Shown one piece after another: positions 1,450 through 5,348 of a stretch of 64,000 bases of DNA. The notes beneath the pieces were generated by a model. The model searched no databases. It was not told where the DNA came from and was given only the letters and a program-made list of their open reading frames with translations. The stretch covers positions 1 through 64,000 of the forward strand of contig JAGOWQ010000001.1 of NCBI GenBank assembly GCA_018060185.1, written 5' to 3'. The stretch comes from Leptotrichiaceae bacterium (GTDB lineage Bacteria; Fusobacteriota; Fusobacteriia; Fusobacteriales; Leptotrichiaceae). A program made the translations under genes and the position numbers. Position 1 is the first letter of the stretch; the number at the start of each line of letters is the position of its first letter.

Positions 1450-3033
1450 TTACTTCCCACTTTCCCCATAATTTTTTAAAACCCTTGCACTAGGATCATC
1501 TACATCGCATCCTTCCCATGATTTGTTAGGCATCCAAAAATCTTTTATCCAATATGCTTGTCCAGGATAGAATTTTTCGAATATATCTCTATATAGTAAT
1601 GATTCTTTTGTAAAAGGAGTTCCATAAGTATATTTTTCTTTTGATTTATCCAAATCATCATCTGTATATTTATTTTCAGCAAATTCTTTTAAATAATCTA
1701 CCATTGAGTGCCCAACAGCATCACTAAATGCTGCTTTTTCTCTATATAAAATACTATCTGGTAAATAATCCAACCCCTCAAATGCTTTTCTTAATAAATA
1801 TTTTCCTTTACCGTATTTATTCATTTTTTTCTCAGGATTTACACTCATAACATAATTTACAAAATCTAAATCACCAAAAGGTACTCTAGCTTCTAATGAA
1901 TTTGCTGCAATTACCCTATCTGCCCTTAATACATCATACATGTAAAGTTCTCTTATTCTTTTTTGGGCTTCTTTTTGAAATTCTTTAGGATTTGGTGCAA
2001 AATCTGTATATTTATAACCAAAAATTTCATCACTAACTTCTCCAGTCATTAACACTTTCAAATCTGTATTTTCATGAATATATTTACATACAAGATACAT
2101 TCCTATACTCGCTCTTATTGTAGTTATGTCCCAAGTTTCCAAATGCCATATTACCTTTTCTAATGAATTTAGTACATCATCTTTAGTCATTATAACTTCT
2201 GTATGATCCGTTCCTAGGAAATCTGCCACCTCTTTTGCATATTTCAAGTCTATCGGATCTGTTTCCATCCCTACTGCAAAGGTTTTTATAGGTTTATCTA
2301 AAAACTTTTGTGATACAGCACATACTAATGAAGAGTCCAATCCACCGCTTAATAAAAATCCCATTGAAGCATCAGAATGTAATCTTTTTATTATTCCTGC
2401 TTCTAATTTTTCTCTAATTTTTTTTGTAATTTTATCTATGTCTTCATCAATTATTATTTTTGGATCTGCTAAGTCATTATACAAATAAAAATTCCCATTT
2501 TTATAATAATGCCCAGGTGGAAAAGGATACACTTCATCGCAAAATTCAATTAAACCTTTAGCTTCAGATGAAAAACATATTCCTTTTGTTACTTTATCAT
2601 AGCCATAAAACATTGGTCTTATTCCTATTGGATCTCTTCCTGCCATTATTTCTCCTGTAACTTCATCATACATAACCAAAGCAAATTCTGCATCTAACAT
2701 TTTTAACATTATTTCAAATCCAAATTTTTCATATAAAGGAATTAATACTTCGCAATCACTTTCAGACTTAAATTCATAACTCTCTTTAAGTAATTCTTTT
2801 AAATGTAAAAAATTATAAACTTCTCCATTACATATTAGTTTTTTTCCATTATAACTAAAAGGTTGATTTCCATTAGAACTCAAATCCATTATAGACAGCC
2901 TATGAAATCCCCAAATACCACCATTTTTTTCTATTGTTTGATTATCTGGACCTCTATGAAAAACATTATCATAACCCTTTTTAAACATTTCAATTCCTAC
3001 TTTTTCTTCTGATGCAAATAAAAATCCACACAT
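1450..3033 (-). CDS. asnB: Glutamine-hydrolysing asparagine synthetase
   Basis: Makes asparagine from aspartate, glutamine and ATP in the cytoplasm. The start was set at 3033 because the SD AAGGAG precedes it and because the class II amidotransferase fold needs Cys2 as its nucleophile (MCGF); the open frame extends upstream to 3144 only through the leader RNA. The N-terminal glutaminase domain has R45, the CNGEVYN motif at 68-74 and RDPIG at 133-137. The synthetase domain carries the PP-loop SGGLDSS at 229-235. The length, 527 residues, fits AsnB. The gene appears to be monocistronic, with a leader containing a terminator upstream and a terminator downstream. A T-box-like leader with an AAC triplet suggests control by uncharged tRNA-Asn (inference). 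Confidence 0.93.
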   Translation of the reverse strand: MCGFLFASEEKVGIEMFKKGYDNVFHRGPDNQTIEKNGGIWGFHRLSIMDLSSNGNQPFSYNGKKLICNGEVYNFLHLKELLKESYEFKSESDCEVLIPLYEKFGFEIMLKMLDAEFALVMYDEVTGEIMAGRDPIGIRPMFYGYDKVTKGICFSSEAKGLIEFCDEVYPFPPGHYYKNGNFYLYNDLADPKIIIDEDIDKITKKIREKLEAGIIKRLHSDASMGFLLSGGLDSSLVCAVSQKFLDKPIKTFAVGMETDPIDLKYAKEVADFLGTDHTEVIMTKDDVLNSLEKVIWHLETWDITTIRASIGMYLVCKYIHENTDLKVLMTGEVSDEIFGYKYTDFAPNPKEFQKEAQKRIRELYMYDVLRADRVIAANSLEARVPFGDLDFVNYVMSVNPEKKMNKYGKGKYLLRKAFEGLDYLPDSILYREKAAFSDAVGHSMVDYLKEFAENKYTDDDLDKSKEKYTYGTPFTKESLLYRDIFEKFYPGQAYWIKDFWMPNKSWEGCDVDDPSARVLKNYGESGK

Positions 3034-3070
3034 ACTTATCTCTCCTTCATATTTTGTAATATTTTCTGTA

Positions 3071-3097
3071 AATAAAAACCGCAATTCATCATTGCGG
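3071..3097 (-). terminator. Leader (attenuator) terminator upstream of asnB
   Basis: On the minus strand CCGCAAT (3091-3097), 5-nt loop, ATTGCGG (3079-3085), then TTTTTATT (3071-3078). It lies 38 nt before the asnB start and after the leader's promoter, so it acts inside the transcript. Confidence 0.8.
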
Positions 3098-3386
3098 GTA
3101 TCTAAACTATATTCATGATATGAACTTACATTGTCAATAAACAATCATTTTAATTTCATATATACATGATACGGAAATGCTCTATGGCACTCGATACCCG
3201 TCAATACTTACGTAATTGAATAACGTCCTGGTCTACTAAGTTTAACCTTTCGGCAGGCAACTCCTGAGTGTTCTTCATTAATAACTCCATTGTCAGACTC
3301 ACACCGTAACTGACTCGCTCTTAACTTCTGATATTAACTACTCTCTCAATCATAGTCTTTAAATATTTATTTACTTTTATTTCTAT
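3071..3386 (-). promoter_or_regulatory. T-box-like leader of asnB with attenuator
   Basis: The ~315-nt leader has features of T-box stem I, in transcript order: an AGAGAGTAGT element, GAGCGAGTCAG pairing with CTGAC around GGTG (apical loop), then AAGAACACTC, in which AAC, an Asn codon followed by A, sits where the specifier is expected. GAGTTGCCTGCCGAA and AGTAGACCAGGACG follow, as in T-boxes. The leader ends in a terminator hairpin. CGGGTATC (antisense of 3193-3200) is exactly complementary to GATACCCG (antisense of 3095-3102), which overlaps the terminator 5' arm, so a competing antiterminator is possible. The canonical TGGN bulge was not found, so assignment is probable rather than certain. 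Confidence 0.6.
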
Positions 3387-3392
3387 AAAGTT

Positions 3393-3421
3393 ATTATATA
3401 ACTTTATTATGAATATGTAAA
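3393..3421 (-). promoter_or_regulatory. asnB leader promoter
   Basis: Minus-strand TTTACA (3416-3421), 17-nt spacer, perfect TATAAT (3393-3398). It gives a transcript starting near 3386. Confidence 0.75.
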
Positions 3422-5097: not shown

Positions 5098-5313
5098 AAT
5101 AAAAAAACAAGATATAAGAAACCTTGTTTAATAGTTATATTAAATTTAATTGTATGCAAAAAAATACTAAAATAAATTTAATTAAATAACTCAATACCTT
5201 ACTCATCTATAATCCCAAAGGGAACAGAAATCTCTAAATCAAAGTATTACTTAAAATACTTATTTGTGATGGAAAGGTGAGAAAACAACGTTTCTACTTT
5301 CTAATTTAATTAC
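5098..5313 (-). promoter_or_regulatory. infC operon leader with terminator (candidate L20 leader)
   Basis: About 215 nt of untranslated RNA precede infC. It ends in AAACAAG (5123-5129), 11-nt loop, CTTGTTT (5105-5111) and a seven-T run (5098-5104), a terminator only ~12 nt before the SD. Leader plus terminator before infC-rpmI-rplT matches the arrangement of the L20-controlled attenuator of Firmicutes; the L20-binding fold itself was not verified. Confidence 0.6.
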
Positions 5314-5319
5314 TAGGAT

Positions 5320-5348
5320 AATATATCATATTTTAGTACTTATGTCAA
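5320..5348 (-). promoter_or_regulatory. infC operon promoter
   Basis: Minus-strand TTGACA (5343-5348), 17-nt spacer, TATATT (5320-5325) preceded by TGA: near-consensus. Confidence 0.8.

Follow-up and report, generated by a model that had tools for sequence, protein, structure and literature searches.

The stretch of DNA analyzed here, referred to as the window, comprises 64,000 nucleotides of a Leptotrichiaceae bacterium and carries an asnB gene on its minus strand, preceded by a structured leader. The encoded asparagine synthase B aligned to NF006949 from residue 1 with 621 bits (cut-off 499 bits), and a family scan also found the Asn_synthase domain; a mechanical list of open reading frames places the asnB start farther upstream, at a TTG at 3144. 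Upstream of this gene, the T-box covariance model RF00230 matched positions 3362-3136 of the minus strand with 68.4 bits and an E-value of 2.5e-14. The first-pass annotation had recognized a T-box-like leader before asnB, and this match, in which Stem I is aligned over the full element, bears it out. The covariance search that it had named as a check nevertheless gave a divided answer: Stem I is complete and the E-value is low, but the score stays under the RF00230 gathering score of 93 bits. The antiterminator portion of the model was skipped as a local end. In its own genome, which is 86.7% complete, this leader was the sole T-box match at E ≤ 10. From 5' to 3' its elements are ordered as Stem I, AAC specifier, Stem II, IIA/B pseudoknot, accessory hairpin, terminator and asnB, and the features of the locus are as follows.

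3421-3393, minus strand: promoter-like TTTACA-17-TATAAT, a consensus match only (11 of 12 bases)
3260..3356, minus strand: Stem I, from the RF00230 alignment
3272-3270, minus strand: specifier AAC (anticodon GUU), followed by A3269, within GAAGAACAC
3227..3257, minus strand: Stem II with an S-turn-like CCGAAA...AGUAG, from the RF00230 alignment and the leader alignment
3201..3226, minus strand: IIA/B pseudoknot, an ACGT/ACGT helix plus TCAAT (3219-3215) with ATTGA (3205-3201), from pairing across 26 leaders
3168..3198, minus strand: conserved accessory hairpin GGUAUCGAG...UUCCGUAUC, at which the conserved part of the leader ends
3193..3205, minus strand: proposed antiterminator 5' strand, ATTG-a-CGGGTATC, from folding and shuffles
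3091..3102, minus strand: proposed antiterminator 3' strand GATACCCGCAAT, overlapping the terminator 5' arm, from folding and shuffles
3097-3079, minus strand (3070..3097 with the full T run): intrinsic terminator CCGCAAT-GATGA-ATTGCGG-TTTTT, from a pattern scan
1450..3033, minus strand: asnB, asparagine synthase B, with its ATG at 3033-3031; NF006949 and Asn_synthase domain

Promoter-like sites near the leader were no more frequent than expected by chance (5 found, 5.5 expected), while one intrinsic terminator was found in the leader region against 0.2 expected. The leader boundary that had been drawn at 3386 would lie close to the start expected from the promoter-like site at 3421-3393. A leader-peptide attenuator was considered and rejected: the sole short open reading frame of at least 20 amino acids in 3030-3400 has 33 amino acids, starts with GTG and has no run of Asn codons. 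The tRNA-Asn of the same genome has the anticodon GTT and, as judged by eye, G73 followed by an encoded CCA, giving the 3' end GCCA. Two other minus-strand stretches of the window drew attention. Positions 5100-5330 look like a structured leader and lie upstream of open reading frames that we take to be IF3-like and then ribosomal-protein-like, whereas positions 1029-1241 hold a short open reading frame that by eye appears secreted and coiled-coil-like and adjoins an adhesin-like reading frame at the window start.

The 5' part of the leader has the layout of a T-box decoding half. The inner motifs of its Stem I are presumably the k-turn, AGUA, AG and GNUG motifs. An AAC-A in the specifier position had been proposed from the window alone, and AAC at 3272-3270 with A3269 behind it is indeed found there, within GAAGAACAC. 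Placed by its distance from the 5' side, following Tyr or Val leaders, the triplet would instead be GAA; we favor AAC because of the 3' spacing and the downstream genes. In family scans AAC precedes asnB, aspartate-tRNA(Asn) ligase and asnS, so that the specifier suits the amino acid. By this specifier the window's leader is predicted to read tRNA-Asn.

An RF00230 scan of 98 Fusobacteriota genomes, run with stricter filters, gave 28 hits in 21 genomes. Before counting, we set aside two canonical T-boxes (L002 and L003) and one hit of 23.1 bits that was unlike the others (L021), and added L046 (genome G089), which had been detected by scanning for a DNA pattern and with the subclass model. A further pattern hit, L038, looked like a chance occurrence within coding sequence and was dropped. 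The resulting set consists of 26 truncated leaders in 19 of the 98 genomes and 10 of the 29 genera, which share the specifier context, the pseudoknot and the conserved hairpin; the suspected divergent subclass is borne out by this common design in 10 genera. All of those scored with RF00230 stay below 93 bits (L046 lies outside the scored list), so that searches at the Rfam cut-off miss such leaders. When ten leader-holding loci were compared with Rfam, only T-box matches were obtained at E ≤ 0.01. An intrinsic terminator was identified by script in 25 of the 26 leaders, and by eye only, with a longer loop, in L006.

The decoding half is strongly conserved in this set. The specifier context GAAGAACAC is present in all 26 leaders, which confirms that relatives keep the AAC, and one 8-mer of the decoding half is common to all 10 genera. 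In alignment A1, made from 16 of the 26 leaders, the invariant parts are GAAGAACAC, portions of Stem II, ACG...CGT of IIA/B and GGTATCG...TC.G.A of the hairpin. The IIA/B pseudoknot forms 4-6 bp in all 26 leaders even though the paired sequences are highly varied: in 14 representatives a loop and its own tail give on average 5.14 bp, compared to 3.49 bp for loops and tails taken from different genera, although 36 of 172 such cross-genus pairings also reach 5 bp or more. The genes downstream are related to asparagine. Family scans of the proteins behind seven leaders identified asnB (window, L019), aspartate-tRNA(Asn) ligase (L008, L006), DUF896 (L013, L022) and asnS (L032); for the remaining leaders the target was judged from the sequence start alone, as asnB, Asn/Asp synthetases or DUF896. 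Truncated leaders also occur in tandem before asnB-like open reading frames (L016/L026, L024/L027 and L004/L028).

This conservation bears on whether the leader could be a decaying relic that no longer responds to tRNA and merely attenuates constitutively. The discriminator is gone and, with stricter filters, the subclass model found no hit in 78 of the 98 Fusobacteriota genomes, as decay would predict. However, the specifier, the pseudoknot with its compensatory changes and the hairpin are conserved across 10 genera, the leaders stand before asnB, Asn/Asp synthetases or DUF896, and tandem copies exist, which makes decay a very unlikely explanation.

Two canonical T-boxes of the phylum were noted in passing. 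A canonical Asn T box of clostridial type lies with a synthetase-like gene on a 6,229-base contig (L002/L035) of a genome that was binned as Fusobacterium; since this genome is 71% complete, contamination or transfer is likely. The other (L003) has a canonical T box, a UGG context and a similar accessory hairpin, and precedes an open reading frame that by eye resembles anthranilate synthase.

The accessory hairpin closes the conserved part of the leader. Its core pairs U.G, A-U and U-A are nearly fixed, and its three outer pairs covary (p ≤ 0.0015 against shuffles at three positions) in 20 clostridial leaders, a set of 20 rows from 21 named loci that were chosen for carrying the hairpin pattern. 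Its identification as Stem III was rejected, as several clostridial leaders have, by eye, a further short hairpin with RRRxG/AA-like flanks before GGGTGG. We also dropped the idea that the hairpin is specific to Asn and Trp leaders. It had come from 2 of 30 mixed clostridial T-boxes, these being the loci returned out of 92 hits in 4 genomes, and then 22 of another 40 hits, again of mixed specificity, matched the pattern, a count for which the search model favors the hairpin and the specifier column is a crude guess.

What follows the hairpin in ordinary T-boxes was not recognizable in these leaders. Between the hairpin and the terminator of the window's leader we found no UGGN-type T box, in line with the earlier remark that the TGGN antiterminator bulge was not seen. 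We trained a weight matrix on 30 clostridial T boxes, which themselves score 14.9-31.6 bits; 10 further T-box-bearing leaders outside the training set score 15.0-31.2 bits. By this matrix none of the 26 Fusobacteriota leaders has a recognizable T box, with a best score of 8.3 bits overall and 1.1 in the window's leader, whereas all 70 clostridial hits examined have one. These are the 30 best clostridial hits of the subclass model (mixed specificity), all with a GGTGG T box, and 40 further hits, hand-picked at about E 4e-11 to 2e-7, all with a T box by the looser pattern GGTGG.A within some 500 bases; clostridial hits came from 141 of 391 genomes. The clostridial T box comes after the accessory hairpin, and several leaders have another short hairpin between the two.

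Could a UGGN-type antiterminator be present and have been missed? In simple (mononucleotide) shuffles the 95% point was 5.4 bits and the highest score 19.8; the two weakest true T boxes (14.9 and 15.0) lie under this maximum, so a weak T box might be overlooked. Six of the 26 leaders score above 5.4 bits, five of them through the hairpin's own strand TTGGCGGGTATCGAG. On the other side stand the best score of 8.3 bits, the five RF00230 alignments inspected for Fusobacteriota leaders, which skip the T-box part or (L010) delete it, and the lack of any 5-7-mer downstream of the hairpin that is common to more genera than in five shuffles. The space can also be short: in L028 only 17 nt lie between the terminator arm and the 3' flank of the hairpin. 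A missed antiterminator is hence scarcely credible. At the place of RRRxG-Stem III-AA, where such flanks can be seen by eye in Clostridia, this comparison of 5-7-mers brought out no sequence shared by the Fusobacteriota leaders. Since there is neither a recognizable T box nor sequence shared above shuffles beyond the hairpin, the discriminator, that is Stem III plus the UGGN antiterminator, appears to have been lost from these leaders; the simplest history would place this loss in the Fusobacteriota line. A UGGC in the pseudoknot strand was considered as a new acceptor site and discarded, as it occurs in some leaders but the window has UGAC.

In place of a T box, the window's leader offers another partner for its terminator. 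The first-pass annotation had pointed to two exactly complementary 8-nt segments, the second overlapping a terminator arm, and both statements hold: CGGGTATC (3200-3193) is exactly complementary to GATACCCG (3102-3095), which overlaps the 5' arm of the terminator at 3097-3079. Across one bulged base, ATTG (3205-3202) with CAAT (3094-3091) lengthens the pairing to 12 bp in total. The terminator arm thereby pairs with CGGGUAUC plus the pseudoknot strand AUUG, and CGGGUAUC and GAUACCCG are the two sides of the proposed long-range pairing. In 300 dinucleotide-preserving shuffles of the 5' segment this duplex reached p = 0.003, which is the floor of the test (1/301).

The idea that this complement acts as an antiterminator found statistical support in part of the window's family and not beyond it. 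Tests on 25 leaders (L006 was left out) gave p < 0.05 in three, all from the window's family (0.003 for the window's own, 0.007 for L017 and 0.013 for L020). The pairing was weak in four leaders of the Sebaldella genus (0.076-0.243), and the remaining 18 leaders gave no significant result (0.229-1.0). Terminator arms of the window's family bind strands of their own family with a mean of -13.5 kcal/mol and those of the other family with -8.8 kcal/mol, whereas in the other family own pairs (-8.6 kcal/mol) are hardly better than cross pairs (-7.7 kcal/mol). An alternative pairing by the apical and 3' strand of the hairpin had p < 0.05 in 4 of 25 leaders (L004, L015, L016, L017). A single antiterminator scheme for the whole phylum was rejected, with 7 of 50 tests at p < 0.05, uncorrected, against 2.5 expected by chance.

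Folding energies gave a similar division. In a model in which the terminator 3' arm is not yet made, and which has no shuffled control, exposing the terminator 5' arm of the window requires 10.0 kcal/mol if the leader is free and 0.6 kcal/mol if the hairpin and IIA/B are forced. The corresponding cost falls from 11.0 to 0.3 kcal/mol in L017, from 9.9 to 2.2 in L020 and from 5.1-8.4 to 2.5-3.9 in the Sebaldella genus; for the remaining 18 leaders the change is confined to -3.4 to +1.0 kcal/mol. Two results speak against strand exchange: the window's leader has to be forced into the folded state at a cost of 15.1 kcal/mol, the energy of the pseudoknot not being counted, and in the minimum-energy fold of the full-length leader most of the long-range pairs persist next to a terminator that is shortened. 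In these models the 12-bp pairing of the window would antiterminate and would exclude the folded hairpin and pseudoknot. With a folded decoder end that excludes antitermination, the sign of regulation in the window's family may differ from that of a normal T box.

Taken together, the leader is probably a T-box-derived sensor of tRNA-Asn that has kept its decoding half and lost its discriminator and that, in the window's family, switches by strand exchange. The sequence comparisons support the conservation of the decoding half, the absence of a recognizable T box from the 26 leaders, the asparagine-related targets and the terminators; the switching draws on folding within the window's family. 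In the antitermination state the IIA/B 3' strand and the hairpin 5' strand would pair with the terminator 5' arm, and in the alternative state the same strands would refold into pseudoknot and hairpin, so that the terminator is released. Binding of tRNA-Asn would stabilize one of these two states; by structure alone this should be the folded, terminating one. Control could then be inverted with respect to a normal T box, as follows from a tRNA that stabilizes the folded end, or some contact other than UGGN could report on charging.

Inverted control alone fails to explain charge sensing, because Stems I and II are not expected to discriminate charge; a decoder by itself should not distinguish charged from uncharged tRNA. 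According to the review PMC7583486, T-boxes owe their charge sensing to the discriminator, composed of Stem III and the UGGN antiterminator; this unit is said to be both necessary and sufficient for the task, and UGGN to be fixed in all known T-boxes. Competition with EF-Tu might act as a charge sensor, with free uncharged tRNA binding the leader and charged tRNA held by EF-Tu. We did not take this as the lead reading because EF-Tu has little effect on the binding of charged tRNA to the glyQS T-box, according to parts of PMC5951919.

The limits of the decoder instead direct attention to a relocated acceptor contact or a protein. The 5' strand of the hairpin contains RGGU with an invariant GG, which could replace the UGGN bulge by pairing with C75-C74-G73 of uncharged tRNA-Asn; the GCCA end of the tRNA-Asn in the same genome fits. 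Both G residues before UAUCG are found in 26 of 26 Fusobacteriota leaders while their partners are variable; of 20 clostridial leaders that retain a T box, 17 have G at the first of these positions and 5 at the second. The hairpin stretch is also the best T-box-like window in 12 of the 26 leaders, and five of these exceed the 95% point of the shuffles with their 8.3 bits. This value is nonetheless below the shuffle maximum, the five leaders are related, the window's leader scores only 1.1, and the GG could be inherited. Moreover, the sign would be wrong for asnB, because the same strand forms the window's proposed antiterminator and its pairing with tRNA would favor termination under starvation. 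We consider such a contact unlikely. A protein that reads charge on the tRNA-bound leader, such as AsnRS or the co-encoded DUF896 protein, is quite improbable: a DUF896 gene comes first behind several leaders and asnS is the next open reading frame in L032, but the window's leader precedes asnB and not DUF896. The DUF896 small-protein genes that directly follow leaders include L013:1821-2030, L022:1772-1990 and that of L032, where a family scan identified the open reading frame behind it as asnS.

Returning to the T-box-derived sensor with strand exchange, we regard it as conceivable, and somewhat short of probable, that the Fusobacteriota leaders constitute a class of tRNA-Asn riboswitch without a discriminator, in which Stems I and II do the reading, strand exchange gives the readout, and control is either inverted or exerted through an undescribed acceptor-end contact. 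Conserved leaders that consist of a decoder only make it testable whether decoding alone regulates and whether another acceptor-end contact exists. Among titles and abstract openings we found no earlier description of a T box without discriminator or of Fusobacteriota Asn T-boxes. Vitreschak 2008 and Gutierrez-Preciado 2009 are reportedly comparative studies of this kind of element. A table in PMC2494555 lists zero T-boxes for two Fusobacteria/Thermotogae genomes.

With respect to known systems, the leader is best called T-box-derived, a variant of a known T-box kind, because its decoding half is homologous to that of T-boxes but a defining feature, the T box, is not recognizable in it. It shares Stem I, the AAC specifier, Stem II, the IIA/B pseudoknot, the intrinsic terminator and the asparagine genes with class I transcriptional T-boxes (RF00230), and differs from them by its score below the gathering threshold, by having no recognizable T-box antiterminator and, in the window's family, by a different pairing that competes with the terminator. 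Clostridial Asn T-boxes, which in our comparison precede asnA-, asnB- and asnS-like genes named by eye from sequence, have the same GAAGAAC specifier context and the accessory hairpin UAUCG...YYGYR; unlike the leaders described here, they retain behind it an additional short hairpin, whose flanks look RRRxG/AA-like by eye, and GGGUGGUACCGCG. The translational class II T-boxes of Actinobacteria, as presented in sections of PMC1262725, are likewise T-box relatives with an altered readout. Assignment to that class was rejected, since class II leaders sequester the Shine-Dalgarno sequence, whereas the leader described here has an intrinsic terminator upstream of the asnB start.
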